A DNA stretch of 36,159 nt from a virus. The position numbers and the translations under genes are program-made. Each line of letters opens with the position of its first letter. The first letter of the stretch is position 1. The notes under the pieces were generated by a model. It had not been told where the DNA came from. It did not search any database and saw only the letters and a list, made by a program, of their open reading frames with translations. The stretch spans positions 1 through 36,159 of IMG/VR virus record IMGVR_UViG_3300006076_000614. One strand, 5' to 3'. Positions 4,960 through 21,037 of the stretch are shown piece after piece.

Positions 4960-5267
4960 TAGCTCACCCGTTGTTTGATCTTGGCTGCTTCTTCTTCTGC
5001 TTTTTTGATTAGGTTTTCTTCATGCTTGCGTTGTGTATCTTCATTTGTGCTTGTTGGTGGCAATGTTCCTCTGCGGTACGCTAATACCTGTTCAACCTTT
5101 GTGATAGCAGATGCGCATTGATTTAAGCCCTTATAAAGCCAAACTTTATCTCCACGTTCTTCTGGCGTTTCAAAACCACATTCACTAGCAGCATAAGCAA
5201 TTTTAATTAAGTCATCTGTCATCGTTTCTGTGAGTTCTTCTAACTCTTTAATTTGGTCATCACGCAT
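4959..5267 (-). CDS. terS: Terminase small subunit-like protein
   Basis: 102-residue helical, acidic protein directly before, and overlapping, the large terminase. Its size, charge and position match the T7 gp18-type DNA-recognition subunit; no motif is decisive. I place the start at ATG 5267 (MRDDQIKELEELTE). An upstream TTG at 5300 would run through a terminator stem and add an unlikely cysteine-rich leader. There is no free Shine-Dalgarno: the only G-run (GAGGG) is in the 3' arm of the preceding hairpin, 7 nt from the ATG. Confidence 0.75.
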   Translation of the reverse strand: MRDDQIKELEELTETMTDDLIKIAYAASECGFETPEERGDKVWLYKGLNQCASAITKVEQVLAYRRGTLPPTSTNEDTQRKHEENLIKKAEEEAAKIKQRVS

Positions 5268-5306
5268 AAAAAAGCCCTCGCATATAGTGCATATATACAA
5301 GAGCTT
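5268..5306 (-). terminator. Long hairpin terminator abutting the terS start codon
   Basis: On the minus strand, bases 5306-5293 pair with 5285-5272 over 14 consecutive positions (Watson-Crick plus G-U) around the 7-base loop ATGCACT. They are followed by six T, and the terS ATG comes immediately after. In plus-strand RNA the wobbles become mismatches. The 3' arm carries GAGGG, which is also the only possible ribosome-binding site for terS, so the stem could both terminate transcription and occlude translation. Confidence 0.85.
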
Positions 5307-5362
5307 CGAGTGTGGTGTGTTGGGTGTTTATCTAACAACTATTACCAGTATATCTATAGTTT

Positions 5363-5929
5363 CTAACTATTTGCATTAGGATCAATAAATATTTCCTTTG
5401 GCTTCCATCCATAGTTCTTGCCAAGGTATATAGGCTCTATTGTCCCTGAAGCAATATAAGCAAATTTATCTGCTAACTTGTCAATCCCTCCACCAAATCG
5501 CAAGGGAGGTAGTTCCTGTGGAATAGCGACAATTAAATCATCAATACTTACAGTAGCATCAAGTTTTGGGATAAATAATTCCACATCTATTACACCTTGA
5601 TCGGTTAATAACTTGGCCTGAACCATCTTAATAGGCTCAACATCCCCAGTTAATATAGCAATTTGTGCATTTTCTTCTTTTGAATAAACCCTGCTTACCT
5701 TCCCAACTAAAGGATTAAAATGTTTAAGCTCACAGTCTATATTATTATAGACATACTGTTGCAAATCTACATATCGCTCAAAACGTATAGGCTTTGGCCT
5801 TAACAGATTTTCTTTAGCATTAGTAATTTTTCCACCAATCTCACTGGAGTTCACAGGGTAACTTTTAAAATAAAAAGCTAACAGGACACCTGCAATTACC
5901 ATTAGGCAAATAGCAATAAGCACAATCAT
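5363..5929 (-). CDS. Membrane-anchored protein of unknown function (188 aa)
   Basis: Not recognised. The N-terminus is a single strong hydrophobic segment (residues 2-20, IVLIAICLMVIAGVLLAF) followed by a soluble domain of about 165 residues. It is therefore either a bitopic inner-membrane protein or a virion protein with an insertion helix. It lies directly between the 842-aa ejection protein (the stop of that gene is adjacent to this ATG) and the terminase, in the late operon. A virion or ejection role is possible but not shown. Low-complexity, coiled-coil and enzyme motifs are absent. Confidence 0.7.
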   Translation of the reverse strand: MIVLIAICLMVIAGVLLAFYFKSYPVNSSEIGGKITNAKENLLRPKPIRFERYVDLQQYVYNNIDCELKHFNPLVGKVSRVYSKEENAQIAILTGDVEPIKMVQAKLLTDQGVIDVELFIPKLDATVSIDDLIVAIPQELPPLRFGGGIDKLADKFAYIASGTIEPIYLGKNYGWKPKEIFIDPNANS

Positions 5930-8458
5930 TTATTGTTCACTCATATCCCACCAATAACTATTGCCTAAATTTTCAAGCCGTTGTTGTGTTTTAGGCAAAT
6001 AATCTGGATCTATCATATTTTGAAGTTTAGAGTATAGCATTCGATCTACTACAAGTTTACTGTACCATAGGTTTTGTAATGGGACATTCCCTTTTAAAGT
6101 ATTTGCAATTTCCATCATTCGCGTAGATTCCTTGCCTTCAATAAAGTTATTCCCCATACCTGTTAGCAGCATACCCAACTTCATGCTTTGGCCTAGTAAT
6201 GGGCCACTGATAAAGTCTGATGCACTTCGACCGGTTGGATCCGACAGTGCGGACATCATGTCACCCAAGAAAGAAAGCCCACCACCTTTGAGAAGTGATT
6301 TACCAAAGAAATCAATCGTAAATACCGGCTCTGGATTCTTACCATTGGCCAAGTTCTGGGTCTGAACGATCAATGCACCTGCTAAAGTTTGATAAGCCAG
6401 TAGCGAAGCTAGGAATGTCACCCGGCTCTTAATATCTCCCTGGGCAAAGGCACGATGACCAATACGGAACATATAAGCCAATGGGAAGCCTTTGAACTGA
6501 AATAAGGTTCGGCCTAATTCCCCTTGGATGGTACCAGCTTCGCCCAAGTTAATGATGCTACGTTCACGTACACCTGCTTCAATAATAGCGACTGACTCCT
6601 CATTGAAGATATGAGTCTGGTATTTCATAGCAGCTTTATACCGGAAGTCAGCCAGTGCATTAGGATTGTCCTGCTTGTCCAGTGGCAAGAACTGCTTAAT
6701 CACATCATCTGGCGCATTGAAAAAGTCATTCTGGGAGAGTACCGCCGTCCCATCTTCACGTTTACTTGGCTCCAGCTGCTGCCATAATTGCCAATCACGT
6801 TCAGTAATACCATTCCCCTGCAGGATCTTGAGATCATCTGCACCGAGATCCTTCCAGTCTGATTTACGTGTTAATTCAGCCAGCTTATTCATATGCACCA
6901 GATTGAATGCTCGCTTCGCTCCTGCTGTGACGGCGTTCAAACCTGATAGTTTCATCGTGGTTGCAGCAAACGCTTGCATACGCGCATTGAAACGGCCTGA
7001 TTTAGTGGCACTACTCACCACATCAGCATCTCCAAAGCGAGACATACCGCCTACCATCTCAGTGATACCAAGCCCAAAACGTAGGGCTTCATCACGTGTA
7101 GCACCCTGTTTCAGTTGCTTCATGTATTCAGGGAGGATGGATTTGGTATAAGACAGGCCTAGCATATTAGCCACTTTCTTCATGCTGGCATGATCACCAA
7201 AGGTCGTTAATGTGGTGCCACCTAATTTAGATGAAACCATTAGGGCACGCAGACCACCCATAACATTTCCCAGTGTTGAATCAATCGCCCGGGTATTGGC
7301 ATCCAAAGTGTTGTACATCGACATGGCTCGATGAGCCTGCTTATCAATTTCGCCATGTTTCAATCCATTCTGTGGATCTGCTTTCAGTTTGATCTTGGCT
7401 TCATCCAATAGAGATTCAAACGTATGACGAGGATTGGATCCAAGGTTCTGCATCATTGCTACTTCCGTACTCATGCGCTGAGTATGGTTTTTCAGAATCT
7501 CATGAAAGCCCGCCTCGTTATAGGTCCCGTACTTATTCTGATATGCCAGCCATGCATCGCCATCCTTGAAATGCAAAGCACGTGATTCCTGGTGACGATT
7601 TGCCATCTTAGAGCGACCACCTACAGGTGATGCTGGTGCTTTCACCTGCTTAGTGAGTACTTGCAAATCCTTATTGGCGCCGTTGGTTGAAATAGTTTTA
7701 TAGACCTCCTCGAGCATGGATTTAAGCTCCAGCTCATCCATCAGCTCTCCAGTTTCTTTGACATATTGATTTCGATCCAGTCCAGCCAAAGCATCATTAA
7801 CCCACTCTGATTGATCAGTCAAAGCTACCTTTTTCTGATCATGTGAGGTCATGAAGCCAAAGTTATCCAGTTTCTTGATGTTCCCACCAGCACGGTTGAA
7901 GGCTAAACGCATCTCCTCCAAAGCAGCACTAACCTCTTTGGCCATTGCTGTAATTTCTGGGTTATCAGACTTACCACCAAACATGACCCGGATTATGTCA
8001 TCAGTCATAGCCTTGTTTACTGACATGCCAAAGCGTTCTTGTGTCTTGGTAAACACATCGGCTACCAAGGACATCCAACGGCTATGTAAGGCTTGAGATT
8101 GCTTCTCTATCGACTGGATACCACTCTGGTCAGAGAAGTATGCGATTTTCCGCATTAAAACTTGAACCGGATTCAACTTTGGATGATTGTAAATCTCAGT
8201 TTGCAGTTGAGCCTTGATAATGGCATCACGGGCAATGTTCTGATTGTTCTTGGCAATCTGGACGGCGAAATCTGTAGCAGTTTTCTGCGCGATTGCTTCA
8301 GCACGTTCAGCTGCACTTTTGAAAATCCAGTCTGGATCTGTTCTGGCCAAAGTGTTTTGTGCCCGGATATACAGTGATGAAATACGGTTACTATCAGCTG
8401 CGCTTAATTTTCTTTTACCTAATGCTTTTGCAACTTGTTCTCTACACTCAGCTCTCAT
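5930..8458 (-). CDS. Large internal virion (ejection) protein, 842 aa
   Basis: Long, largely helical protein at the place of the C-terminal part of T7 gp16 in the gene order. Its ATG overlaps the stop of the transglycosylase-bearing protein (ATGA), so the two are translated as a coupled pair. No enzyme motif is visible. A few glycine/alanine-rich hydrophobic stretches in the last third (around AQGDIKSRVTFLASLLAYQT) could insert in a membrane. By position and size it is inferred to be ejected with the DNA to form part of the trans-envelope channel. The exact family is not recognised with certainty. Confidence 0.75.
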   Translation of the reverse strand: MRAECREQVAKALGKRKLSAADSNRISSLYIRAQNTLARTDPDWIFKSAAERAEAIAQKTATDFAVQIAKNNQNIARDAIIKAQLQTEIYNHPKLNPVQVLMRKIAYFSDQSGIQSIEKQSQALHSRWMSLVADVFTKTQERFGMSVNKAMTDDIIRVMFGGKSDNPEITAMAKEVSAALEEMRLAFNRAGGNIKKLDNFGFMTSHDQKKVALTDQSEWVNDALAGLDRNQYVKETGELMDELELKSMLEEVYKTISTNGANKDLQVLTKQVKAPASPVGGRSKMANRHQESRALHFKDGDAWLAYQNKYGTYNEAGFHEILKNHTQRMSTEVAMMQNLGSNPRHTFESLLDEAKIKLKADPQNGLKHGEIDKQAHRAMSMYNTLDANTRAIDSTLGNVMGGLRALMVSSKLGGTTLTTFGDHASMKKVANMLGLSYTKSILPEYMKQLKQGATRDEALRFGLGITEMVGGMSRFGDADVVSSATKSGRFNARMQAFAATTMKLSGLNAVTAGAKRAFNLVHMNKLAELTRKSDWKDLGADDLKILQGNGITERDWQLWQQLEPSKREDGTAVLSQNDFFNAPDDVIKQFLPLDKQDNPNALADFRYKAAMKYQTHIFNEESVAIIEAGVRERSIINLGEAGTIQGELGRTLFQFKGFPLAYMFRIGHRAFAQGDIKSRVTFLASLLAYQTLAGALIVQTQNLANGKNPEPVFTIDFFGKSLLKGGGLSFLGDMMSALSDPTGRSASDFISGPLLGQSMKLGMLLTGMGNNFIEGKESTRMMEIANTLKGNVPLQNLWYSKLVVDRMLYSKLQNMIDPDYLPKTQQRLENLGNSYWWDMSEQ

Positions 8459-11034
8459 GCTGCTTCACTCCCATATCTTAATGCACAGCTGGCTAAGGCC
8501 TTCACTGCCTGAATTTCATCTTTTGCTATTTCTTCTTGTTCTTTGACATAGTCCAGTAGATCCCGGGAGGACATTGTCACAATCTCCTCGTTTCCGTTCT
8601 CGTCTAAACGGGTAAATGTCACTTCCATGTCTGGATCCGCTTCCAGAATTGAAACCGCTTCACGTCCGTCAGGAGTCTCGGTAAATGAGCCGTACTCTCC
8701 CTTACTGGCTTTGGTTAAGTCTGGTGCACCATCAACCTTCGATTTACCAGGCTTCCAGAATTCTCGCTCCAGTGCCTGAGCTGCCTTATGCTGGACTGCG
8801 GTTAGTTCAGGACGATTAGCCTTCCCGTTCCCCGGGTGAGCAAACAGATCACTTCCGTTTCGAGTAGCCTTCACAGGGCTGATAGAGCCATCCTGATTGA
8901 TTTCACGCTGGAATATTGTATTGGATGCCTTGTTATGCAGCTCTTGAATAACCCGACCATCATCCAGTGACTGCTCTCGTTTCAGGTAGTTCTGCGATCT
9001 GGTTGGAGTCCAATTATCTACTCCTGCAGCAATTGAGCCTTGCTGTATATCCTGCTCTGGTTGACGTGCATTGATATCGAGAGTATTTGTCTCAGTATCT
9101 GCCAAGATAACGCGCTGTTGTTCTGGCATCACGTACTGAAGGTCAGAATCCAAAGTATCCAATGTGCGGGTAGCACTATTACCTGGACCAGAAAGATCTA
9201 CCTGAGGCTCTACATACGGCGCCCGATAGGCACCACCTTCTGAATATTGGTAATGCGCCGTAGCCTGTAAGTACTCCAGATCCTCTTTGGTCAATGGAGA
9301 GGATAGGGCTTCAAACTCCTCCTGGAGTGATTTGATGCTATGTTCATCTGTAGTCAGTACAAATGGCATTGCTTCAACTTCAGCGTCGGTTTGAGATTTA
9401 TAGGCAGGTGGTGCAGCGATATCGGATTCAAATTCAGGGAATTCAGATTCACTCCCCCTTATCACTATAGCCTCACCATCAGAATGACTTCCCACCCCTT
9501 CATACTGCTTGGCAACCTCATTCCAGCGCTTTTGGTACTTCGCTTTTACCTGCCCCACAGTCATGCCATTGAACTGATGGGCTGCTGTAATTCCTTCCGC
9601 TACTTGGCGAGCACTTTTCTTATCAGTTCCCTTGCTCCAACGTGTGGCCACATCAACAAAAAGTTCATTGTCTTTAGCTTTCAAAAAGACTGGTCCACCA
9701 CCTTCACCGAAGAAATGTAGATAGTAAAGTTCCAAGCCATTAGGATCGCGGCTAAAGTTTTTACGGAAGATCTTGGCATTATGCTCGTAGTAATTCAGAC
9801 CAGCTTTAATCTGTTCATTGCCATCAAACTTATTCTTTCCACCCATTGCAGCAAACGTACTATCAATGGTTTGGAATAAACCAGTAGCAGAGGATAGTAA
9901 TTTCCCCTTCCTGTCCTTAGGCTGAATGGTTGGATCGAATGTTCCGCCGTTTTCAATATGGGATAAAACCAATGCATCAACCGGATTAATGCCACGGCTT
10001 GAAGCCTCCTGAGCAATTGCTTTCGCCCATGGCTTACTTTCCAGTACTGGATTTTTCAGTATAGACGGCGCTGCTTTCGCCTTTTCACTTGAGTCGACAG
10101 TAGGAGCCTTAGCCACCGCTTTAGGTGTACCGGTCACAGGTGCCTTTAAGCTGACCAGCTCATCATTCAGTGCACTTTCCATAGCACTATCCAATGCATC
10201 AAAGTGCGAATTGGCTTCTTTAGGATTTGTAGGACTGAATGGGTTTACACTTTCTGCATGCTCGATATTCGCCTGGATGTGAGCAGCATCATTCATAGCA
10301 TCCACATTACTATGATCTTTGACTTGTTCTGGTCGTAATTTCCCTTTATTCGCCCATAGGTTTAGCAGTAGGGCCATACCTCCATTAGTTGCCATGGTAG
10401 TAGGACTTAAGGCATTTTCCTTTAACGCCTCTCCATATTGGGCAACTTTCTTATTTCCGCTGTTTTCTAAATAAGAACCTTCGACATAGTCACCGGCTGA
10501 CCCTGCAGCTGTAGATAAAATCGTTGTTCCTACGGCATCTGCCACCACATTTTTAGCGACCCCATGAGTAGGAATAGCAAACCCCAGAGCATCGGCGACC
10601 CCTTTAATAGCTCCACCGGTTCGGGCCGTATTTATATCTGCCCCTTTATTCAGTAAGTCTGATTTCTCTGCTTCAAAGGTCTGGTACCCGAATAGCCCAG
10701 AATTCAATGCTAAGCCAGGTACACCACCAGTACCTAGTGTAGTGACGGCGTTCCAGCCAATACGGGTAAAGTCTTTGGTTAGGCCGTAGGTAAACTCACC
10801 CACACTCCCAAGATCATCAGGTTTAAAAATCTCTAAGTTCTGTGCTCTTAAGGCAGCCGCTTTCTTATCACCACGGATCAGGGAATCTGGAGCAGTGGCC
10901 GCTTCAATAGTCCCCATAGCCACACCAGAAATAGTACCCAGTGCGCCGTCACTTAATGCCCCACGTTGGCTTTTAGGTTTGTAGCGAGGGTCATCCTGAT
11001 TTAACGATAATTCGTCATCTGCTAAAAAATCCAT
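8455..11034 (-). CDS. Internal virion protein with lytic transglycosylase (SLT) domain
   Basis: 859-residue ejection protein. A soluble lytic transglycosylase-like domain lies at about residues 335-465. The catalytic glutamate is E361 in SHIENGG, followed by the family's ATGLFQTI motif and an ALNYY-like helix (AGLNYYEHN). It would cut peptidoglycan locally so the ejection channel can cross the wall, as gp16 of T7 does. The N-terminal 200 residues are glycine/alanine-rich with hydrophobic stretches. The C-terminal 350 residues are acidic and low in recognisable motifs. It is followed with a 4-base overlap by the 842-aa protein, and together they resemble a divided and enlarged gp16. Confidence 0.88.
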   Translation of the reverse strand: MDFLADDELSLNQDDPRYKPKSQRGALSDGALGTISGVAMGTIEAATAPDSLIRGDKKAAALRAQNLEIFKPDDLGSVGEFTYGLTKDFTRIGWNAVTTLGTGGVPGLALNSGLFGYQTFEAEKSDLLNKGADINTARTGGAIKGVADALGFAIPTHGVAKNVVADAVGTTILSTAAGSAGDYVEGSYLENSGNKKVAQYGEALKENALSPTTMATNGGMALLLNLWANKGKLRPEQVKDHSNVDAMNDAAHIQANIEHAESVNPFSPTNPKEANSHFDALDSAMESALNDELVSLKAPVTGTPKAVAKAPTVDSSEKAKAAPSILKNPVLESKPWAKAIAQEASSRGINPVDALVLSHIENGGTFDPTIQPKDRKGKLLSSATGLFQTIDSTFAAMGGKNKFDGNEQIKAGLNYYEHNAKIFRKNFSRDPNGLELYYLHFFGEGGGPVFLKAKDNELFVDVATRWSKGTDKKSARQVAEGITAAHQFNGMTVGQVKAKYQKRWNEVAKQYEGVGSHSDGEAIVIRGSESEFPEFESDIAAPPAYKSQTDAEVEAMPFVLTTDEHSIKSLQEEFEALSSPLTKEDLEYLQATAHYQYSEGGAYRAPYVEPQVDLSGPGNSATRTLDTLDSDLQYVMPEQQRVILADTETNTLDINARQPEQDIQQGSIAAGVDNWTPTRSQNYLKREQSLDDGRVIQELHNKASNTIFQREINQDGSISPVKATRNGSDLFAHPGNGKANRPELTAVQHKAAQALEREFWKPGKSKVDGAPDLTKASKGEYGSFTETPDGREAVSILEADPDMEVTFTRLDENGNEEIVTMSSRDLLDYVKEQEEIAKDEIQAVKALASCALRYGSEAA

Positions 11035-11041
11035 ATCTACC

Positions 11042-13033
11042 TCATCGAACCGTAAAAGCTAAACGTTTTTGTCTTTTCTTGTCAGTGGCATCCATGATGT
11101 ATTTGGTGCCATTCTTGAAGTAATAGACGTATGGATTCTTATGGTCTTGCTCTAAAGGCAGATCCAAAAAGAATTCTTTGTCAGATCCACCATAGTTACG
11201 GGCATTACGAGAGTTAAAGCTCTCCAGCTGCTCACGGAAAGATTTTTCACCTACAGTATGAGGTCGCAACACTACCGATTTACTTCCGAAGAATCCCCCT
11301 GAAGTGAACTTGCCCCCTGTGACATTCTTAGCTGCTTTATTAAAAAGCTCTTCATCAATGGTCTTGTTTAGAATATTTCCCTTTGAATCGGTGACCTTTT
11401 CGGATTTCTGAACCAAATAAGCATAGTTAGCTTTTATTGAATCCAGATAGATTTGAAAGTCTGGTTTACCTGGTGAGGTAATACCGGCTAAATACGCTTC
11501 TGTATGCTTTGTTAAGCCACTTTCATCGACCTTGACCAACCCCTTTTCAATCAGATCCTGCCCAGTAACGATCTGGCCAGCAATATCTTGCAGACCTCTG
11601 TTATTGAGCGAAGCAGATAAACGATATGAACCACTATCACCAGCAATTCCATTAATCATGTCTCTGGATGCATTGGCATTGCCTGCGCTAGATTTATAAA
11701 GACTGGTAAGCAAACTTAATTTGTCACCTGGTTTGGCTTTTTCCCAGAACTGCTTTAATTCAGATTGTTGCTGTGTCGAGAATGGATTTAAGGATCCTAC
11801 CGTGCCATTCAATACGTTATTTGCGTGAATAGATTTAATATTCTTAGACAAAGCTGCAATGGCTTCAGGGTTACCACTTAAAATTGCATTGGTAGGTACT
11901 ACCGTTAGATCCTGACCTGTCTTAATCGAGTAGGCCAAAGTGGAGTTGTTTTTCTCATAATTGAGCATATTCTCATGAGTCTTCGACAGAAGATTCAATT
12001 TCCAACTGACATCTTTTGGATTGTCCTGCGCCGTATTTTGAGCTTCTGCCCGTCTCTTGCTCAGATAGGCTTCACGTTCATCTGGTCCTAATCTCATGAA
12101 CTGTTGAACCTCAACCAAGGCTCCACTGTATTGAATAAACTCAGACTCTTTTTCTGTTCCTTTTACACGTGCCAAACGAGATTTGATGACGTCTTCACTT
12201 GGGATTAAGCCTGTTTCGATGTCTGCTTTCATCTCATTAACAGCATCTTTGGCATCATCATCCAACTGTTTTTGCTGCAATGCAGCCGCACGGTTATTCT
12301 GGTCAATCTGGGTTAATGTTCGACCACTCCAGTAAACAGCCTGTTCTTGAGTTAAATCAGGATGTTTTGCAATTACAGCTTCAGGAGTTGAGAGTTCAGT
12401 CAGCTTTTCATTGTCCGATTTATTCGCCTGGTAGAAAGTCGTTACATCATTGCTGGCACGGTTATTTTTGTATTCATTAAAAGTGTCCTGAACATGAGCC
12501 AACGGTAAACCTTTGGACTGTGCATACAAAGACAATCCATTCCACACCTCTTTTTCAGAAGCATTAGGATTTTTAAGATAGTTTTCTCGCATGCCTTTGA
12601 GCTGGACAATTGCCTGTTGTTGTTCTGATTTTTGTGCAATAGGCAGATACTTCGATGCACTCTGATAAGAATGCTGTTCAAAGTAATTATTAAAGTTTTG
12701 CTCAAACTGCTTAGGCACCACATTTTTATACTGCGTCTTGATTGACTCAAGGCTTTCCTGTCTTTGCTTTACGGCATTATCGTAGGTTAATTCCCCACTC
12801 TGCATTTTTAGCAGTAAATCATTATCTACAACGCTAATATCAGCACCAATCTTGGATGACTGTAATGCAAAATCAGCTTTTTCTGTTTTATCCTGTTCTT
12901 CTCTAAGTTTTTCACTGCGAGCCTCTAGTGCCCCTCCAATAGAACGACCAATTTCAGCTAAGCCTGTGTTTGGTGTGAATGTCTGCATTTGGGCTTGAGC
13001 ATCTACACGCCCTCTCGAAACTGGAATACGCAT
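11042..13033 (-). CDS. Internal virion protein, T7 gp15-like position (663 aa)
   Basis: Long helical, glutamine- and lysine-rich protein with no membrane segment. It begins MRIPVSRGRVDAQAQ and has predicted coiled-coil character in residues ~35-130 and ~250-290. It lies between the small MCGG protein and the transglycosylase protein, as gp15 does between gp14 and gp16 in T7. I choose ATG 13033, which overlaps the preceding stop (TAATG), over a GTG at 13042. It is probably an ejected tube component; the family assignment is by order and composition. Confidence 0.75.
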   Translation of the reverse strand: MRIPVSRGRVDAQAQMQTFTPNTGLAEIGRSIGGALEARSEKLREEQDKTEKADFALQSSKIGADISVVDNDLLLKMQSGELTYDNAVKQRQESLESIKTQYKNVVPKQFEQNFNNYFEQHSYQSASKYLPIAQKSEQQQAIVQLKGMRENYLKNPNASEKEVWNGLSLYAQSKGLPLAHVQDTFNEYKNNRASNDVTTFYQANKSDNEKLTELSTPEAVIAKHPDLTQEQAVYWSGRTLTQIDQNNRAAALQQKQLDDDAKDAVNEMKADIETGLIPSEDVIKSRLARVKGTEKESEFIQYSGALVEVQQFMRLGPDEREAYLSKRRAEAQNTAQDNPKDVSWKLNLLSKTHENMLNYEKNNSTLAYSIKTGQDLTVVPTNAILSGNPEAIAALSKNIKSIHANNVLNGTVGSLNPFSTQQQSELKQFWEKAKPGDKLSLLTSLYKSSAGNANASRDMINGIAGDSGSYRLSASLNNRGLQDIAGQIVTGQDLIEKGLVKVDESGLTKHTEAYLAGITSPGKPDFQIYLDSIKANYAYLVQKSEKVTDSKGNILNKTIDEELFNKAAKNVTGGKFTSGGFFGSKSVVLRPHTVGEKSFREQLESFNSRNARNYGGSDKEFFLDLPLEQDHKNPYVYYFKNGTKYIMDATDKKRQKRLAFTVR

Positions 13034-13434
13034 TATTTCCACCCATAAGCTTGAGAAATCGCATCAATCGTGCTACTTGCTGCTTTCATGCCATAGTTAT
13101 TACGCGTTTGTTTTCCTTGACGTAATACGTCAGAAGCAGCATAACCAGCCTGACTAATATTCATTGATGCGTTATATGCTGCATCACCTAAAATTTCATC
13201 TTCGATTAATGCTGGAACGCCTACGTTCACATCCAAACCATTTTCAGCAGCTGCGGCACGTGCGCTAGACGCATCTTTTCGCCCTTGATTTACGATCTTT
13301 TTAGATTGTTGTTTAGCTACTGATTTGATTGTTTTAGCATTACCTCTAGCTGTAGCTTCTGCCATCAATCCATTTGCTAGATTCCCAGCAGCTTCAAAGC
13401 TAGAAGAAATTACATTACCTTCACCTCCACACAT
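13033..13434 (-). CDS. Small internal virion protein, T7 gp14-like position
   Basis: 133 residues, alanine- and glycine-rich, beginning MCGGEGNVISSSFEAAG. A basic middle (KSVAKQQSKKIVNQGRKDA) is flanked by amphipathic helices. By order it is the counterpart of the small ejection protein gp14. Its MCGG start resembles that of the 76-aa protein next to the portal gene (20464-20694), which suggests related or parallel roles. A good Shine-Dalgarno (GGAGG) precedes the ATG. Confidence 0.65.
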   Translation of the reverse strand: MCGGEGNVISSSFEAAGNLANGLMAEATARGNAKTIKSVAKQQSKKIVNQGRKDASSARAAAAENGLDVNVGVPALIEDEILGDAAYNASMNISQAGYAASDVLRQGKQTRNNYGMKAASSTIDAISQAYGWK

Positions 13435-13435
13435 A

Positions 13436-13888
13436 TCAAACCTCCATCTCTAAAACATAACCACGTAACTCAAAGCCAAGACTTTCATAAAGCTTGACGA
13501 CCTTATCTGCCTGAATGCCCGACATTGTGCCTAATTGAATACGATCAGCATTTTGTAACTTAGCCCAACCGATGAACGCATCAATTAGGCTTTTTGCTGC
13601 ATTAGAGCGACGATATTCAGGAAGCACATAAACACCTTGCTCAAATGCGATCTTGTGCCCTGTGCGCCAATCTGAGTTAATTGCGCCTATGACTGCACCT
13701 ACTGGATTGCTGTATTCATCTGAAACTATGAAAATTGACCCATAACGACGAATCAGAAGCTCAAATAACTCTCGTGCTCCACTCTCGCTAAAGCCTTGCT
13801 TTGAAAAAATTGGTGATTCTTTGGTGAGACGCTTGCCGAAATCAACAAGCGTTTCGATATCCTTTAAAGTTGCTGCTCGGACGTGCAT
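13436..13888 (-). CDS. GNAT-family N-acetyltransferase in the virion operon
   Basis: 150-residue Gcn5-related acyltransferase. It has the usual fold order: beta1-alpha1 (MHVRAATLKDIETLVDF), a central strand (GAVIGAINSDW), the beta4-alpha3 acyl-CoA segment GVYVLPEYRRSNAAKSLI (residues 85-102, R93-R94-S95-N96-A97-A98 in place of the classic RxxGxG/A), and the C-terminal KLYESLGFELRGY motif typical of the family. It sits between tail tubular protein B and the ejection proteins with only a few bases on either side. It is therefore expressed late and should act on a virion or host protein or small molecule present at assembly. The substrate is unknown. Confidence 0.88.
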   Translation of the reverse strand: MHVRAATLKDIETLVDFGKRLTKESPIFSKQGFSESGARELFELLIRRYGSIFIVSDEYSNPVGAVIGAINSDWRTGHKIAFEQGVYVLPEYRRSNAAKSLIDAFIGWAKLQNADRIQLGTMSGIQADKVVKLYESLGFELRGYVLEMEV

Positions 13889-13890
13889 CT

Positions 13891-15969
13891 CTATTTCTCA
13901 TTGATTGATACCAACATAGAGATACTTTGCATGTGAAATGGCAACGGTTTGTTGTGTGTTATCTTCACTTGAAGATCATGGAGTGATTGCCACCCTAAAA
14001 AGCTATCTAATGCATAACCAGTGTATGGTAAGTTCAAGAAAGCATTTTGGTTGTAAAGTTTGGTCGAAATCTCTTGATCATTGATATATCCACCAATTGA
14101 TTTATTTAGATAGATTGCCATCTCATGCACTTGGATTTTATGAAACATCGCTGTTGCTGGCACTTGGCTAAAATCAGGTGGAAGTAGATCAATTTCCATT
14201 TCAAATGCTTGACCTAATTGAACAGTTTGGCTTAGCGTCTTATCAGGTATGTTTAAATTTGTTCCCACAATTGTGTAGGTTGAATAGTAATATCCATCAG
14301 CATTGCTAAAGCTCACTATTGAATTATCTAGCACCTGAATATCTAAATTGAGTACCGATCCAACACCATTGACCAAAGCAATATCAAACTCACAATCACT
14401 TTGAGCTGAATCTTTTATTTCCTCTAACACAGTAAATCCATTACGATTACTGAGCATAAAACATTGATCTTCGCCCAAGCCTGTAGGCAAAGCACACATA
14501 GACAATACTTGGCCACCAAAATTATGTTGGGACCAAGCATTCATTTCTTGATCACGTTCAAGCGTAATTGATGCAACTGTTCCATCATTAAGAACAATCC
14601 ACACAATGCTATTTGGTGTTTGTTGGTAGGTAAGCTCTTTGATTCCACCATGATTTTCAGGAATATGCGGTGCAATCGCTGATATCTCAGGCGATACCAA
14701 TCCATCTACTTCATAACGATATGACATAGCTCTTAGGCGTTCACCACCACGCTGAACAAACAAAAGCTCGTTGCCTACCCGACACGGTTTAACATTAGCC
14801 TGTACACCAAATGAAGTATGTTCATCAATTTGCGCTGTACTTGGTGTTAATGGTCCTTGTGAATTGATAAGAAATTCTGCCCCACCAGTAAGAGCGACCA
14901 CACCACCACGTTGAGCAAGATGCAAAATGTTATCTGATTGCGCTGAACTGGACGCGATACTAAATGCATCGGCATCCTCTGTGGTTTCTAAGAAGTTTCC
15001 ATCATCAGCAATTCGACTGAACCACATTTGGTTAGGGCTTGTTTTTGTATTGGCGAAAACTAGACGTTGCTTAAAGAAACATACTGTTTTTGGGTATCCA
15101 GTTTCAGCACTAAAAGCTATTGATTTTAATGACCAAGATTTAGCAATCGCCTGAATATTAGACGTTAATTTAACTAAGACTTCTCCATTCACTTTATTTG
15201 CCGAAATGTATTCAGTGATTTTGACCTGACCACCATTAATCTCAACAATGCTGCCTACGCTATCAGTCGTAAATACAGATGCGTCCCCTGCTGTAACTTC
15301 TTCCCAATTTGTATTTACTGCGGTTGGCTCTGATCCTGAATTATCTGCTAATGCTCTCCAAGTTTTGCTTGAATGAATAACTCGATCACCAGTCAGATAG
15401 GTTTCAGTTGTGACCCAATTCGGGAATGCTGCTGCTGTCAAAGAAATGATCTTTCCAACTTCCGTTCCTGATGGTGTTAATGCGACATTGGGTGTTGATC
15501 CAAGTTCATCATTAGGATTTACGCCAAACGTAAACGGTGCAAGCTGCCAGTTGGTGAAGTCTGCTGAACATAGCAAACGCTGTACAGGCGTACCCCCTTG
15601 AACCATGTACATACGATATTTTGTATGCGCATACTGAATTTCTTTTACTTTTTGCTCTGTGTTATATGGCGTGCTTGTTTCATATACCACTGTGTACGTT
15701 CTAGGGTTGTAAACCTTGATGAATGACACACCCAAGATCAATAGATAAGTGTTTTCAGAATTGGCAATAAACGGAATTAATCGCAGCGCTCCTGCGAAAA
15801 TATTTCTAAATTTAGTACCTGGTCTTTTCTTTGCCCCACCCTCAACCAATGGCAAAGCATTTACCAATTTTTTCACACCGTTTGCATACTGCTGAATGTC
15901 TGTGCGAGTCCACAAAAGCGGACTTAATTCACCAGAGCTTAGATTATTTTTTAATATCCATTGCTTCAT
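13891..15969 (-). CDS. Tail tubular protein B-like (tail nozzle), 692 aa
   Basis: Large beta-rich tail protein. The N-terminus carries the podovirus nozzle signature: LSSGELSPLLWTRTDIQQY, then NALPLVEGGAKKRPGTKF, then a strand-rich body with repeated short hydrophobic strands. Its position after tail tubular protein A, overlapping that gene's stop (TAATG), matches T7 gp12. It forms the distal tube through which DNA leaves. No enzymatic motif is seen. Confidence 0.88.
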   Translation of the reverse strand: MKQWILKNNLSSGELSPLLWTRTDIQQYANGVKKLVNALPLVEGGAKKRPGTKFRNIFAGALRLIPFIANSENTYLLILGVSFIKVYNPRTYTVVYETSTPYNTEQKVKEIQYAHTKYRMYMVQGGTPVQRLLCSADFTNWQLAPFTFGVNPNDELGSTPNVALTPSGTEVGKIISLTAAAFPNWVTTETYLTGDRVIHSSKTWRALADNSGSEPTAVNTNWEEVTAGDASVFTTDSVGSIVEINGGQVKITEYISANKVNGEVLVKLTSNIQAIAKSWSLKSIAFSAETGYPKTVCFFKQRLVFANTKTSPNQMWFSRIADDGNFLETTEDADAFSIASSSAQSDNILHLAQRGGVVALTGGAEFLINSQGPLTPSTAQIDEHTSFGVQANVKPCRVGNELLFVQRGGERLRAMSYRYEVDGLVSPEISAIAPHIPENHGGIKELTYQQTPNSIVWIVLNDGTVASITLERDQEMNAWSQHNFGGQVLSMCALPTGLGEDQCFMLSNRNGFTVLEEIKDSAQSDCEFDIALVNGVGSVLNLDIQVLDNSIVSFSNADGYYYSTYTIVGTNLNIPDKTLSQTVQLGQAFEMEIDLLPPDFSQVPATAMFHKIQVHEMAIYLNKSIGGYINDQEISTKLYNQNAFLNLPYTGYALDSFLGWQSLHDLQVKITHNKPLPFHMQSISMLVSINEK

Positions 15970-16529
15970 TAGTAACGCTCCGAAATGTAAGTCGATTCAG
16001 CCCATTGAATGTCTTGGCTTGGTCTTTCTTGGGCGTTAATTGCTTTGGCTTGGCGTAAAATATCTTGAAATTGCGCTTCTGCACTCTGCCCTGCTGCATC
16101 ACTTCCTGTCACAGGCTTACAAAGCTTTGATGCCATTTTTAAAGTCATCGCTTCAACTAACAATGAATCCCACGTTTGCTCATTGTCGTTATCAAAAACA
16201 TATTCAAGTTGGACTGTGTTTGTATCAGCCAAGATGTGACGATTTTCCACTTCATAACGCTCTGTATTGGCTGAAATGATCAGTACATAATCACGTGGTA
16301 AAGGGAATGCATTTGCATAACCAAAACTTGGGTATGTAGAAACAGGGGAAAGGATTTGACGCTTCTTAGCACACGACCACGGATGAGAGCGAAGCAAAGC
16401 CAGCCGTGTTGTGTCGTAAATATTTCGGCACAGTTGCGCTAGTTTAGATTCTTCTTCAAAGCTTGCGATCTGCTGACCGCCAATCATGCTCAATGCATTG
16501 TTGCAGATGGATACTTTAGTTATAGACAT
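15969..16529 (-). CDS. Tail tubular protein A-like (head-tail adaptor/gatekeeper)
   Basis: 186 residues from ATG 16529, which gives the usual family N-terminus (MSITKVSICNNALSMIGG). The body has the LCRNIYDTTRLALLRSHPW segment typical of gp11-like gatekeepers and a helical C-terminus. An in-frame ATG at 16562 would add residues encoded by the terminator stem and is rejected. No separate Shine-Dalgarno is present: the GGGG in the hairpin's 3' arm lies 7 nt upstream of the chosen ATG. It joins the portal to the nozzle. Confidence 0.85.
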   Translation of the reverse strand: MSITKVSICNNALSMIGGQQIASFEEESKLAQLCRNIYDTTRLALLRSHPWSCAKKRQILSPVSTYPSFGYANAFPLPRDYVLIISANTERYEVENRHILADTNTVQLEYVFDNDNEQTWDSLLVEAMTLKMASKLCKPVTGSDAAGQSAEAQFQDILRQAKAINAQERPSQDIQWAESTYISERY

Positions 16530-16571
16530 AATAAAACCCCGATGACTTTTGGGTAGTTTCATCGAGGTTTT
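16530..16571 (-). terminator. Terminator hairpin abutting the tail tubular A start codon
   Basis: On the minus strand, 16571-16559 (AAAACCTCGATGA) pairs with 16545-16533 (TCATCGGGGTTTT) over 13 positions with a single U-G wobble and a 13-base loop. It is followed by TTTTATT and then the ATG. The 3' arm GGGG is the only Shine-Dalgarno-like sequence for the next gene. It follows the 56-aa gene and the AC-rich motif (16590-16575). Confidence 0.8.
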
Positions 16572-16593
16572 GAAGTGTTTTGTTGGGTATAAA

Positions 16594-16764
16594 TTAGTGC
16601 TCTAAATGCTTTTCAACTAACTCATCAATCTGAATTGAGCGATTGATCAACGCTTCTCTTGCATCACTTGGAATACGTTGATCAAACTGCATACCACGCA
16701 TAAAGTTAGCTACCGACTCCAAATGTTCAAGCAACTCATCTTTTACATCATCAGCATTACTCAT
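16594..16764 (-). CDS. Small protein between capsid and tail genes (56 aa)
   Basis: Short gene read by hand: ATG at 16764 (MSNADDVKDELLEHLE...), ending ELVEKHLEH at a TAA. A Shine-Dalgarno (GAAAGG) lies about 8 bases upstream. It is acidic and wholly helical in character, with no hydrophobic segment. It lies between two terminators, immediately behind the major capsid gene, so it is probably expressed on its own short late transcript. Function unknown; small head-decoration or head-completion proteins occur at this place in related phages. Confidence 0.7.
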   Translation of the reverse strand: MSNADDVKDELLEHLESVANFMRGMQFDQRIPSDAREALINRSIQIDELVEKHLEH

Positions 16765-16795
16765 TTTAATACCTTTCGCTACGTTTACTTGGTTA

Positions 16796-16830
16796 TAAAA
16801 AACACCCCACCGCCCTGCTAAACGGTGAGG
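16796..16830 (-). terminator. Intrinsic terminator after the major capsid gene
   Basis: On the minus strand, CCTCACCG (16830-16823) pairs with CGGTGGGG (16812-16805), with one U-G pair, followed by GTG and six T (16802-16797). It starts 10 bases after the capsid stop codon. The position parallels T7's late terminator, which directly follows the major capsid gene and raises its relative expression. Confidence 0.82.
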
Positions 16831-16839
16831 CGAACGAGG

Positions 16840-17736
16840 TTAAACAACGTAGTCGATAGCAACCACTTTAAGCTCGTTTGCACGACCAGCACCAAAAGAA
16901 TGAACTCCACCCACTTGTGAGATATTCTTTTTGTCAGGACGTTTAGAAATATCAAAGCCTGTGATATTCGCATCACCAAAATGAGCTGCTGAACCTGCAT
17001 ACATTACAGTACGTAATTCACCTACTGCTGCACCTTGATTCAGCTTTTCATATGGAATCCAGTTGACACCCATCCATTTGCCACCTACACCACCTTCTTG
17101 CAGCATTTTCCCTGCCATGAAGTCAGCACTTGTAAGCGTGGTATCGCCTAAGATGTCTTCCAACATGTCAGACGTGTAAAGCATGTAAATGGTTTCACCG
17201 TTGTGCTCATCACATTCGTTTTTACGGAAAAGTGATTTTGCTTTGATGATCTTTTGCTTCAATGTACCAAAAGAAGAAAGGATGATTTGACCCGCTGGCA
17301 AGTTGACAGTAGCTGTTGATTTAGTGCCGTTATCCGCAACTGTTGTACGAGTTACACCACCAACCAAAGCTTGATAGATAATGTCGTCAGTTTTACGGTT
17401 ACGCGCACTGATCAAGTTTTTCATGTACTTGTCAGATGGATTTGCTTTTAGTTTTGGCAAATCACGAGCTTCAATCGGAATAAATAAATCCCAATCTGCC
17501 ATTAATGCTGTACGCACACCAGCATCAGGAATAGTCCAAGTTGTGTCGCCAAAACGGTTGCCCGATGCTGACATTTCAACTTGACCCATGTCATTGATAG
17601 TGAATGATTCACCTTCAATTTTTCCACGATTCACAATTGTTTTTAATAATCGTGAGTCATTCTGCATTGCAGCGACTTCATAAGTATCATGAAACTGCTG
17701 TACAAATGCTGCCGTTATTTTATTTTCATTCGCCAT
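16840..17736 (-). CDS. Major capsid protein
   Basis: 298-residue HK97-fold-type capsid subunit. Its place directly after the scaffold gene supports the call, as do its composition (MANENKITAAFVQQFHDTY start, central SARNRKTDDIIYQALVGGV helix) and its C-terminal beta-rich half (GGKWMGVNWIPYEKL, then a VGGVHSFGAGRANELKVVA end). It resembles the capsid family of short-tailed phages with a separate scaffold. The Shine-Dalgarno is a GGGGG run. A terminator follows immediately, as expected for the most highly expressed late product. Confidence 0.88.
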   Translation of the reverse strand: MANENKITAAFVQQFHDTYEVAAMQNDSRLLKTIVNRGKIEGESFTINDMGQVEMSASGNRFGDTTWTIPDAGVRTALMADWDLFIPIEARDLPKLKANPSDKYMKNLISARNRKTDDIIYQALVGGVTRTTVADNGTKSTATVNLPAGQIILSSFGTLKQKIIKAKSLFRKNECDEHNGETIYMLYTSDMLEDILGDTTLTSADFMAGKMLQEGGVGGKWMGVNWIPYEKLNQGAAVGELRTVMYAGSAAHFGDANITGFDISKRPDKKNISQVGGVHSFGAGRANELKVVAIDYVV

Positions 17737-17747
17737 TGGTCAACCCC

Positions 17748-18353
17748 CTAGCCGTATGTTTTGCTGTAGTAACTTTGAACTTGGGCACTAACACGCTTAT
17801 GGTCGGGATGACTTTCGTTCATGTATGCCTCTGATGCCATCAATTCTGTGATGCTTGCAGCTCCGCTTTGTTGTGTATTTTGTGGGGGCATATCTTCTTG
17901 TAATGCCTTGCCAAAGTGAGCTGCTAAACGAATGCCGAACGTAGGCGAATCAATATCTTTTGGATCAAGCCCTGCTGCTTCTACTGCTTGCTTTGCAAGG
18001 CGTAGGTTTTGATCAAATTCACCACCCCATTCCGATTGCAATGCTTCCAATTGAACTGCTGTGTGTTGCTCATAAGCTTGAAGAACAACGCCTAATTGCT
18101 CATTAGAAATCCCTGCTTTAAGGGCATTTTCTAAAAAAGCTTTATTGCCTTCATCAGACTTGAATGCATCGAAATCAAAGCCTTCAAGATTGACTTCGTA
18201 CTTATCGGCAGATTCAGGTAAATCTGTTTTCTGCTCTTGCGTCTGAGCTTCTTGTGTTTGTTCTGTGTTTTGAGTTTCTGTATCAGTTGTGGCTGTTTGC
18301 GTTTGCTCAGTAGTCTGAGTTTCTTCACCAGTTTGGGCTTGTAAATCATCCAT
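17748..18353 (-). CDS. Capsid scaffold (assembly) protein
   Basis: 201 residues, strongly acidic. The first ~45 residues are a threonine/glutamine/glutamate low-complexity tail (repeats of TQT, TEQTQ). A helical body follows, and the end is a short C-terminal helix with basic residues (HPDHKRVSAQVQSYYSKTYG), the part of phage scaffolds that usually binds coat protein. It lies between the portal region and the capsid gene, as T7 gp9 does. Its ATG overlaps the preceding gene by 8 bases. Confidence 0.85.
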   Translation of the reverse strand: MDDLQAQTGEETQTTEQTQTATTDTETQNTEQTQEAQTQEQKTDLPESADKYEVNLEGFDFDAFKSDEGNKAFLENALKAGISNEQLGVVLQAYEQHTAVQLEALQSEWGGEFDQNLRLAKQAVEAAGLDPKDIDSPTFGIRLAAHFGKALQEDMPPQNTQQSGAASITELMASEAYMNESHPDHKRVSAQVQSYYSKTYG

Positions 18354-18822
18354 TGTTCTCTACCTCGCTGTAATTCGGATCATTTGCTTGATTGATTTGA
18401 TTAATTAAGAAATTGACAACGCTTTGCTGCCCTAAGTTAAAAGTGGTTTTGCGTTCTGATTGAGGATCGAAAGCATCACGGCAATACATCTGTGTCAGAT
18501 GCTCTAAAATTCGCTGACCATTGATGTCTAAGTCGAAAACAACACGGTATGTTTCAGGCGTTGGTCGCGTTAATTGCCTGTGCTGTACGAATTTGCCTGT
18601 AACTTCTGCTTCGTTATCCTTTTCGCGCAAAGCTTCTTCGAGCAGTTCAATTTTGTTGGTAAGTTCATTGAGTTCAGCATGAGCATCATCTAGCTGAAAC
18701 TTCGTATCTTGATGAAGTCGATTTTCATCCCAGTACATGTCATGCCATTTTTCGTGCTTAACTTTTTGATAAATTGCATAAAACAGGATGACAACCGCCA
18801 ATACAAAACCTAAATAAATCAT
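18346..18822 (-). CDS. Membrane/coiled-coil protein between portal and scaffold (158 aa)
   Basis: Not recognised. Residues 2-19 form one hydrophobic segment (IYLGFVLAVVILFYAIYQ), followed by a charged helix with heptad character (about 40-75, ELNELTNKIELLEEALREKD) and a soluble C-terminal domain. The ATG overlaps the portal stop (ATGA), so its amount is tied to portal. Its position suggests a late or assembly function, perhaps membrane-associated, but this is inference only. Confidence 0.7.
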   Translation of the reverse strand: MIYLGFVLAVVILFYAIYQKVKHEKWHDMYWDENRLHQDTKFQLDDAHAELNELTNKIELLEEALREKDNEAEVTGKFVQHRQLTRPTPETYRVVFDLDINGQRILEHLTQMYCRDAFDPQSERKTTFNLGQQSVVNFLINQINQANDPNYSEVENNG

Positions 18823-20462
18823 GATCTAACCTCGCTTGTTAGTTCTGCTTCAACGCCTTTGCCTAATGCGTTTGCGATTGGTTGCGCCAAGGTTTGAGCT
18901 TGTTCTTGTGCTACTGCTTGCTGCTGTGCTTGCTGACGTTGTTGACGAATCTGATCAATTTCATCTTTCGTTCGCAAAATTGACGTAGGAACACCCAAGC
19001 CCATGCCTGTAACTTGAGCAACTGCATCAAAATCAATATTGTCTAAAACAGATTGATCAATTGCTGCCACGTTGCTAAGCCCCATCATGAAGCGTTCAAT
19101 CGCTGTCACTTCTTCGAGTTGCTGAGAGCGTGCTAAAGCTGAAATAAATTTGAATGACAGATTGCGCCCTTGCATTTCTTCGGGTGCTTCACCGATCACG
19201 CCTGCACGATATGCAAGCCCGAAAGTACGTTCTAACAGGGGTGTAAGTAGTTCGGCTTGCCACCGACCATACAAAGGACCTAATTGTTGACGAATCAGGT
19301 CAACTCGCACATTAACCTCTGTTGCCGTCATTGCAGGGCCATCGGCTGGCTGTAATTGATCAGCCATCATCTTTTTGCGGATGCCACCTTGTAGCAATTG
19401 CAGCAACTCAACACCGACTTGATAACCTTTGCCATCATCCATGCGCTGCATAGAATCAACGGAATTAGCAACAACGATCTTGCCACCGCCTAAACGCACA
19501 GTTCGCGCATTTAAAACACCATCATCTTTAGCAATCCACATGCCGAGCGTTGAAATCTCCGCACTTCGTAGCGTATCTCGCACCAACTTGTTTGCTGTTT
19601 TGGCATCAGGTAAAGCTGTTGATACTTGCCCAATTCCGTAAACAGAGTTGGGTAACTTTCGATAGCGTGGAATTACAAAAGGAAATTCGTTATAGCCCGA
19701 CTCTTTTAAAATATGCTTTGCTTCTACTTCGATGTGATAAGAAGCGAAAGGCATCTTTTTAGCTATTGTGTATCTATCATCGAGATTGGCTTTAATGTTC
19801 CTCGGCTGAACGACAGTAATAACTTTGAACTTAGTATCAGGCTTATCTTTATAAGTGTTGCGGACTTTCTCGCTGACTTTGTTCTCGCCATACTCAGTAA
19901 CTAATGCCGCTGCTGTCATGTCAAACTCTCGATACAGCGTATCAATCCGCTGATCTTGACGTGTTGAAGCTAAATAGCATTGACCAATGTCGTAAGTCTG
20001 AAAGACGTAGCCGCCACCAGCTTTGCGGTCAACATCTAAATACATCACACCCCAACCAGCGACAACACAATCCGTAACCAGGTCAAAGATTTCACTATCA
20101 AAATTTGCACCGTGAATATTGCGCCAAATGAATTGCGCAGTCACATCAAGCCACTGCTCACCATCTGTTAATTCCGAAGGATCATCCACGCCATCAGGTA
20201 CAGCTTTAAACCACAAAGCATTGGCTGGTGTAGTGCCTGAAATGATGCTCGATACAAGCAGTTGCGTTGCTTCCGCTAATGTTGAATCAAGTAGCTCTGC
20301 TCGTTGTGTCTTGCGTGATTCTGTTACGTCATCACCAATAAAAGATTGTTGACGCTCAGGTGCAGCATAGCGATAGCATTCTGTCCACTGTGACTCATAG
20401 CGTGAACGTTCTGCTTTCAGCTCTCCCAAGCGTTTACACAATTTAGCTACTTGATCACTCAT
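18819..20462 (-). CDS. Portal protein (head-tail connector), T7 gp8-like
   Basis: 547 residues with features of the podovirus head-tail connecting family: an N-terminal helix with RYESQWTECYRYAAPER, then QRAELLDSTLAEATQLLVS and SGTTPANALWFKAVPDG, a central wing/stem region, and a glutamine/alanine-rich C-terminal helix (RQQRQQAQQQAVAQEQAQ) that would form the barrel or crown. It sets the unique vertex for packaging and tail joining. The Shine-Dalgarno is a clear AGGGGG five bases before the ATG. Confidence 0.92.
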   Translation of the reverse strand: MSDQVAKLCKRLGELKAERSRYESQWTECYRYAAPERQQSFIGDDVTESRKTQRAELLDSTLAEATQLLVSSIISGTTPANALWFKAVPDGVDDPSELTDGEQWLDVTAQFIWRNIHGANFDSEIFDLVTDCVVAGWGVMYLDVDRKAGGGYVFQTYDIGQCYLASTRQDQRIDTLYREFDMTAAALVTEYGENKVSEKVRNTYKDKPDTKFKVITVVQPRNIKANLDDRYTIAKKMPFASYHIEVEAKHILKESGYNEFPFVIPRYRKLPNSVYGIGQVSTALPDAKTANKLVRDTLRSAEISTLGMWIAKDDGVLNARTVRLGGGKIVVANSVDSMQRMDDGKGYQVGVELLQLLQGGIRKKMMADQLQPADGPAMTATEVNVRVDLIRQQLGPLYGRWQAELLTPLLERTFGLAYRAGVIGEAPEEMQGRNLSFKFISALARSQQLEEVTAIERFMMGLSNVAAIDQSVLDNIDFDAVAQVTGMGLGVPTSILRTKDEIDQIRQQRQQAQQQAVAQEQAQTLAQPIANALGKGVEAELTSEVRS

Positions 20463-20463
20463 A

Positions 20464-20694
20464 TTAGCCCCCTAAAGTGGTTTTCTTTTGAGTGTCTGTA
20501 GCTGATGAAAGCACAGTTGAAGCACTGCGTTTCTTACGTTCTGCAATAGACGCATTCGCACTTTGCTGTGCTTCGGCTTGTGCTTTTTTTTCCGCTGCTG
20601 CTGCATCAAAGCCTTGAGAAGCTGCTTTAGTGTCAGTGAGACCGATGGCATCAGTGACAGAGGAAAAGATTTTTCCAACAGTGCCGCCACACAT
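20464..20694 (-). CDS. Small Ala/Lys-rich MCGG protein (76 aa)
   Basis: Begins MCGGTVGKIFSSVTDAIG and continues as an alanine/glutamine/lysine-rich helix (AAAAEKKAQAEAQQSANAS) with a basic tail. No enzyme motif. It directly precedes the portal gene and overlaps the 101-aa gene's stop (TAATG). Its N-terminus resembles that of the 133-aa ejection-protein candidate at 13033-13434. It is probably a minor virion or assembly protein. The Shine-Dalgarno (AAGGAGG) is strong. Confidence 0.68.
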   Translation of the reverse strand: MCGGTVGKIFSSVTDAIGLTDTKAASQGFDAAAAEKKAQAEAQQSANASIAERKKRSASTVLSSATDTQKKTTLGG

Positions 20695-20999
20695 TAGTCA
20701 ACCTCCTTCGTAGTCCATCCATCTTTTGTTAAGACTGGAACACGTTTTTTAGGCTTAACTTCACCAGTTGACCCTGAACTTGCGTTTGCTTCGCCCTGAG
20801 TAGACTTCTTTAGCTTAGCTAATTGCGCCTGCACTTCCTCTAATTGGCGTTTGAGTTCTTCGTTGGTTGGCTCAGCCACTTTTGTATCAGGCGTTTCATC
20901 AGCCTGAATATGATCTAAAGCTGCATCAGCAATTTCAGCGGTGGTTTGTCCTGTGGTTTCAGAAGTTGCACCAGGTGTTTTAATTGTTCGACTAGCCAT
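20694..20999 (-). CDS. First gene of the virion block, hypothetical (101 aa)
   Basis: Not recognised. Low-complexity, Thr/Ala/Glu/Lys-rich protein with a central coiled coil (about residues 45-68, NEELKRQLEEVQAQLAKLKK) and a short globular end (VPVLTKDGWTTKEVD). It starts six bases after a terminator stem, with no free Shine-Dalgarno (AGGG lies in the stem's 3' arm, 7 nt from the ATG). As the first gene downstream of that element, it and the portal group would be gated by read-through. Confidence 0.7.
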   Translation of the reverse strand: MASRTIKTPGATSETTGQTTAEIADAALDHIQADETPDTKVAEPTNEELKRQLEEVQAQLAKLKKSTQGEANASSGSTGEVKPKKRVPVLTKDGWTTKEVD

Positions 21000-21037
21000 A
21001 AAAAAGCCCTATTCGTTGTTGATAAACGGATAGAGCT
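21000..21037 (-). terminator. Terminator hairpin abutting the first virion-block start codon
   Basis: On the minus strand, 21037-21025 (AGCTCTATCCGTT) pairs with 21017-21005 (AACGAATAGGGCT) with one C-A mismatch, one U-G wobble and a 7-base loop, then six T run straight into the ATG at 20999. The arrangement is the same as at 5268-5306 and 16530-16571. It marks the early/middle to late boundary of the leftward transcript. Confidence 0.75.

Follow-up and report, generated by a model that had tools for sequence, protein, structure and literature searches.

Tagged terminator-like hairpins carry the ribosome site of the next gene at late-gene borders of Acinetobacter prophages

Phage morons (a promoter, an open reading frame and a terminator lodged between two genes) and the mosaicism of phage genomes are well known; it is less clear how a densely packed structural operon can take up a new gene and leave the following one intact. 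Lambda-type nut, put and qut sites are familiar examples of a linear motif plus a hairpin in an operon with internal terminators. One study of plastic regions recognised no common flanking sequence at those it examined and calls the mechanism of acquisition mysterious (PMC4378225). In phage T4, the Shine-Dalgarno sequence (SD) and start region of genes e, soc and 49 lie in an mRNA helix that lowers initiation (PMC3014915), while in cluster K mycobacteriophages a short repeat with inverted repeats, SAS/ESAS, is found at the starts of a subset of genes (PMC3203893). Finally, the read-through RNA of a prophage terminator at the Gifsy-1 IsrK locus is translationally inactive until it is opened (PMC4825925). 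Buried SDs, inactive read-through RNA, start-associated repeats and morons are each already known.

Here we describe a recurrent element that brings several of these features together. The window, by which we mean the whole 36,159-nt stretch of DNA analysed, is a 36 kb record of a temperate, epsilon15-like podovirus with T7-like tail genes and late genes on the minus strand; related prophages sit in Acinetobacter genomes, and an isolated relative, Piluca, is annotated with epsilon15-like proteins. The element begins with a fixed tag of 10-12 nt, continues with an unstructured linker that is poor in G and ends in a hairpin of the intrinsic-terminator type, and at four borders (those of the first virion-block gene, tail tubular protein A (TTA), the internal virion protein (IVP) in relatives, and the small terminase subunit terS) the G-rich 3′ arm of that hairpin holds the only SD of the next structural gene, with the T-run as its spacer (Table 1). 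We consider it probable that such tagged internal terminators partition the late operon and supply the buried SD of the next gene. The common tag and the SD-bearing terminator mark the same borders in many Acinetobacter prophages, and together they offer a concrete, mutable signal with which to test whether cargo is insulated, how the late operon is read through and how virion genes are controlled.

The element resembles morons in that variable small ORFs lie between structural genes and are closed by a terminator, and in the TATAAT-containing left ends of the IVP cargo, but here the terminator includes the SD of the structural gene that follows, and several borders share one tag. As in T4 e, soc and 49 the SD is placed in a helix; in contrast to T4, no internal late promoter was found, the hairpin is terminator-like, a tag lies upstream and several borders per genome are involved. 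SAS/ESAS likewise pairs a short repeated sequence with inverted repeats at some gene starts and is shared across phages. However, SAS takes the position of the SD, typically 3-7 bp from the start, has consensus inverted repeats and belongs to non-structural genes (PMC3203893), whereas in our element the stem has no set sequence, about 60-75 nt separate the tag from the start, and the genes concerned are virion genes; the 13-bp GGGATAGGAGCCC is missing beside the start, and we rejected identity with SAS/ESAS on sequence and position. The likeness to IsrK lies in terminator read-through RNA, that is, in the behaviour we propose for our element; IsrK differs in its alternative structures and trans-acting sRNA, and is a single locus with neither tag nor repeated use. 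Like nut, put and qut, the element joins a linear motif to a hairpin in an operon with internal terminators, but here the T-run follows the hairpin itself, the motif precedes each terminator rather than standing near the promoter, and no binding protein was found. Neither the combination, its reuse at several borders nor the tag in a phage context appeared in the literature searched, which covered a minority of subscription journals.

Table 1. Positions in the window of the tagged hairpins and of the genes and terminators around them
Feature	Position	Strand	Remarks
Fourth tagged terminator	1219..1246	-	11 bp stem, T-run; between tailspike and holin
Exact tag ACACCCAACAAA	1255..1266	-	Behind tailspike gene
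terS, small terminase subunit	4959..5267	-	102 aa; phrog_9277 aligned from residue 1; start fused to hairpin
terS hairpin	5271..5307	-	16 bp stem, 5-nt loop, T-run to 5268; SD GAGGG in 3′ arm, ATG 5267; -19.1 kcal/mol, z -5.6
Tag ACACCCAACACA	5316..5327	-	Upstream of terS hairpin
Variable cargo gene	5363..5929	-	188 aa; just before terS element; no PHROG or Pfam match
Internal virion protein (IVP)	5930..8458	-	842 aa; no element, start abuts upstream gene
Tail tubular protein A (TTA)	15969..16529	-	186 aa; phrog_394, E 3.9e-63
TTA hairpin	16533..16571	-	13 bp stem, 13-nt loop, then ATT; SD GGGG in 3′ arm, ATG 16529; -16.0 kcal/mol, z -4.0
Tag ATACCCAACAAA	16579..16590	-	Upstream of TTA hairpin
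Small cargo ORF	16594..16764	-	56 aa; between capsid terminator and TTA element
Ordinary terminator behind major capsid gene	16803..16832	-	Without tag; unfused to any start
First virion-block gene	20694..20999	-	101 aa; phrog_11993, unknown function; start fused to hairpin
First-gene hairpin	21005..21037	-	12 bp plus one mismatch, T-run to 21000; SD AGGG in 3′ arm, ATG 20999; -12.6 kcal/mol, z -5.6
Tag TCACACAACAAA	21062..21073	-	Upstream of first-gene hairpin; two mismatches to scanned consensus

A preliminary description of this DNA had reported terminator hairpins that end at the ATG of terS, TTA and the first virion-block gene, and folding energies and shuffled controls place all three on the minus strand, essentially where it had them; at none did any of 200 shuffles fold as well. 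The stems of 13-14 positions that it gave are stable, and become 16, 13 and 12 bp on folding. The T-run reaches the ATG directly, as described, at terS and the first gene, and stops three bases short of it at TTA. We also agree that no separate SD precedes these genes, the G-run of the 3′ arm being the sole candidate. A spacing of 7 nt from the last stem G to the ATG is indeed identical at the three hairpins of the window; among relatives it is common rather than universal, occurring in 60 of 93 distinct elements within a range of 6-10 nt that accommodates all 93. A stable hairpin followed directly by a T-run is the form of an intrinsic terminator, and in relatives the T-runs are kept and the stems are mostly of 9-16 bp. 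RNase III processing requires a long duplex of about two helical turns, and with stems of at most 17 bp we rejected a processing hairpin. An Rfam covariance-model search at the three sites gave no match. Nor is the fused hairpin a general Acinetobacter habit: in 400 kb of an Acinetobacter chromosome, 263 ORFs are 150 aa or longer and none of them shows one.

Ensemble folding shows the SD of these genes to be mostly paired: it is unpaired with a probability of 0.02 at terS, 0.02 at TTA and 0.27 at the first gene, and opening it is calculated to cost 15.6, 16.4 and 11.8 kcal/mol, respectively. For most other late genes the cost is 3-11 kcal/mol; the tailspike gene (15.3 kcal/mol) and a dnaC-like gene (13.1 kcal/mol) are exceptions. 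The start codons match PHROG profiles from position 1 or 2, and that of terS agrees with the independent annotation of Alcaligenes phage Piluca, which puts the terS ribosome-binding site inside the stem, and of Acinetobacter phage TPWB-05. As far as sequence can tell, homologues give no sign of a true start elsewhere.

Relatives were retrieved by protein (TTA, 80 loci; terS, 43 loci; portal, 80 loci), and about 80 related prophages keep the hairpin-start arrangement with stems that differ yet still pair. Of the 81 distinct Acinetobacter-type regions upstream of TTA, 80 (all but locus L328) have a hairpin followed by the ATG, and so do all 31 distinct regions upstream of terS. Distinct stems number 14 for the first gene, 22 for TTA, 10 for IVP and 13 for terS; across these four borders the arms of one element pair with each other at 0.95-1.0, compared with 0.53-0.75 when arms are swapped. 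RNAalifold finds changes on both sides in six of seven consensus pairs for TTA and in three of nine for terS. Because MAFFT alignments of the first-gene and terS elements were partly out of register or mis-cut (rows L084 and L070), structure-anchored stems were used instead. Compensatory change is seen at four gene borders while the ATGs stay, and, as far as sequence can tell, there is no sign that stems are lost where start codons are kept.

Upstream of every fused hairpin stands a linear tag, YAC[C/A]CAACAAAnC, which is absent from the preliminary description; the linker between tag and hairpin contains little G (fraction 0.03-0.14). Positions 0, 2, 3, 6 and 8 of its nine-base core are invariant in 99 elements, a set whose selection with two mismatches allowed favours the core somewhat. 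With one mismatch allowed, the tag occurs in the upstream regions of the first gene (23/23), TTA (64/73), terS (28/28) and the holin (3/3), as against 0-3 upstreams for most other late genes, a GNAT gene being an exception due to a coding stretch; in TPWB-05, five borders (first gene, TTA, IVP, terS and holin) are tagged at the same stringency. The composite pattern of tag, spacer, GGN, T-run and ATG has 18 matches in 149 Acinetobacter genomes and its reverse has none. A few of these matches are in siphovirus-type prophages, in which the tagged terminator lies away from a gene start and is unfused to an SD. The composite pattern is the informative one: matches of the bare tag TAACACCCAACAAA in viral contigs were set aside as mostly at chance level in so large a collection, and chromosomal tag matches followed by a T-run mostly lack a hairpin. 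The tag-like ACACACAACAAACC at 13959 (minus strand) was likewise put down to chance, as lying within a conserved C-terminal coding stretch of tail tubular protein B without a hairpin, as were some scaffold matches that are also coding; ACACACAACAAACC is kept in relatives.

Conservation of the tag across borders whose hairpins are unrelated points to recognition in sequence. Such recognition might be by a factor that works on the terminator; alternatively, the tag could mark a border for recombination or signal RNA stability or ribosome standby. It is conceivable, though we think it improbable, that a factor of the host or the phage binds the tag and so lets RNA polymerase, and perhaps the ribosome too, proceed at each tagged terminator, as a form of distributed antitermination. 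If so, one regulator would set several late segments through a signal before each terminator instead of once near the late promoter. No antiterminator was identified, nor was any regulator or other trans-acting gene found to be common to podovirus- and siphovirus-type users of the tag, which share mainly a lysozyme.

Because the T-run ends at most a few nucleotides before the ATG, no promoter fits between hairpin and gene, and a consensus scan found no promoter-like sites on the minus strand at the three hairpins. The first gene of each segment would thus be reached by read-through, unless a promoter overlaps the hairpin. From this anatomy we infer termination, read-through by an antitermination-like process, reduced translation and insulation. 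RNA polymerase that lacks antitermination, arriving from cargo genes or through prophage leakage, would mostly stop at the hairpin; late read-through RNA would hold the SD in the stem, leaving the segment-first gene to be translated weakly or only once the stem opens; and variable cargo could be admitted upstream with the ribosome site of the structural gene left whole. Ribosomes might use the single-stranded linker, poor in G, as a standby site. The earlier proposal that one element does two jobs is supported in part: a single conserved element is terminator-like and is also the sole ribosome site, and it may terminate transcription and lower translation.

That proposal went further, seeing in the element a device by which termination and a buried start would together stop leaky production of terminase, adaptor and portal-group proteins in lysogens. 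The fused geometry is maintained at four borders and opening the SD would cost 12-16 kcal/mol, which speaks for such a double lock. The buried SD, however, serves only the first gene of its block: the portal (AGGGGG), scaffold and capsid genes behind the first hairpin each have an SD of their own, so a translational lock would not cover them. Moreover, IVP works without a hairpin in the window and in about half of the relatives, from an ordinary site inside the upstream gene, and lambda-type repression already silences late genes. We hold silencing in lysogens as the main purpose to be a possible but less than even explanation, and favour partition of the late operon by tagged terminators that also provide the buried SD of the gene behind them.

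A plainer reading, about as doubtful, is that the G-rich 3′ arm of a cargo-border terminator was reused as SD for lack of room, the burying being non-regulatory. A G-run, a T-run and an ATG are what any terminator beside a start provides, so the SD in the stem could be a by-product of a G-rich arm next to the ATG, and at IVP a native SD in the upstream gene is lost on cargo insertion. A separate SD behind a terminator is nevertheless possible, because two cases have one. The holin start at 1189 (minus strand) has its own AGGGGG behind the fourth tagged terminator, and in enterobacterial relatives a terminator occupies the same place behind the capsid gene, and TTA has an exposed SD of its own downstream of it. 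Constant fusion at four borders would thus be more than necessity, which is an argument and not a measurement, and the last G stays 6-10 nt from the ATG throughout the 93 distinct elements. The holin border also indicates that the tag goes with the terminator, and that SD fusion is an additional feature of structural-gene borders. The unfused terminators of the holin and of siphovirus-type prophages count against the reading we prefer, in which tagged terminators supply a buried SD, as does retention of the element without cargo at TTA and terS.

In some relatives (L336, L469 and L486) the holin frame opens with an ATG immediately downstream of the tagged hairpin (MSKIIGGGMSDQ...), and another ATG follows eight codons later. 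This arrangement is reminiscent of lambda S, a holin with two starts of which the first is structured.

It is also conceivable, though we judge it unlikely, that the stem throttles expression, so that less terS, TTA and internal protein is made than capsid and scaffold, although all come from one late RNA. The affected genes should encode virion or packaging components needed in few copies, and capsid and scaffold have no such stem; yet opening the tailspike start, which has no such element, costs about as much, and the first gene has no assigned role.

Partition of the late operon by tagged terminators accords with where the elements sit, namely where variable cargo genes come to an end at the borders of segments. 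From phage to phage the DNA upstream of the tag is very different, and at the terS and TTA slots relatives hold unrelated cargo or ORFs, or none. Mechanical ORF calling, which includes some ORFs that are not genes, gave 42 clusters of small ORFs in the three slots examined, and variable ORFs lie between genes that abut in relatives at the IVP, TTA and terS borders. Where a small ORF matches a PHROG, the family carries no description, and a PADLOC scan of 32 proteins, nearly all cargo, gave no match. The element is kept without cargo in 22 distinct cases at TTA and four at terS (26 in total). At the IVP border about half of the relatives have the tag and fused hairpin, usually with cargo. Where cargo is present the border always closes in tag, hairpin and ATG, and all IVP cargos seen finish in a tagged hairpin and so have a terminator of their own. 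Where it is absent, the distance from the IVP start to a fixed point close to the upstream gene's end is mostly 9-14 nt and an ordinary SD lies in that gene, an arrangement that the window shares; the element without cargo is found in a few genomes (L123 and L331, and by inspection L084, L100 and L115).

TATAAT occurs in the first 200 nt of 16 of 20 distinct IVP cargos, many of which share one leader and are not independent, compared with 1% of background windows, 2 of 57 TTA cargos and 3 of 26 terS cargos. A two-hexamer promoter score is slightly above shuffles for IVP cargo and inseparable from them for TTA and terS cargo. The IVP pattern fits separately transcribed morons; however, insulation from cargo promoters cannot explain every site, because promoters are suggested only for IVP and not for most TTA or terS cargo.

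A conserved leader (TGTATAATCAATTTGTGGCTAGGCTGATCACCG...AGAGGTGCATATG) stands at the left end of IVP cargo in L107, L087, L094, L111 and others whose ORFs differ, apparently a promoter-plus-leader module reused with exchanged genes. In the terS slot of L085, L093, L095 and L103 the cargo apparently lies on the opposite strand, behind a bidirectional terminator, so that its promoter would adjoin the tag.

Another reading is that the tag is mainly a linker at which genes come and go by recombination. Homology among phages starts at the tag, as in five GenBank phage records that share terS-region DNA with the window only from the tag onward (query position 373-377); cargo stop codons are often 2-4 nt before the tag core. 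In L007 tags flank the cargo, whereas L010, which lacks cargo, has a single tag made of the left portion of one and the right portion of the other; the two look like two states of a crossover at the tag. Against this, a left-side tag is rare and IVP cargo has none, the core is only 9-12 nt, and the tag is kept in cargo-less alleles and before different hairpins; exchange as the tag's main function has, in our estimation, a small chance of being right. Finally, a switch of the T4 kind, in which a late promoter inside the hairpin yields short RNAs with a free SD, is highly improbable: the SD is buried as in T4 e, soc, 49 and I-TevI (PMC3014915), but the consensus scan finds no promoter at the three hairpins and relatives replace stem sequences wholesale, which a promoter could not tolerate.

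Two further observations concern the wider distribution and possible control of the element. In L509 (MZ326864, Piluca), the first-gene and terS elements (1-69 and 19443-19527) are nearly identical to those of Acinetobacter prophages; the recorded host is Alcaligenes faecalis, which may reflect a broad host range or a host label to be checked. In the window, a 136-aa HTH-like protein (22284-22694, minus strand; phrog_17493, with a weak match to a repressor family) occupies a Q-like position before the late block and is a candidate late regulator. A search of five other tagged records, weak because it had no positive control, gave no match to it, and a homologue in L337 is likewise encoded upstream of a tagged terminator.
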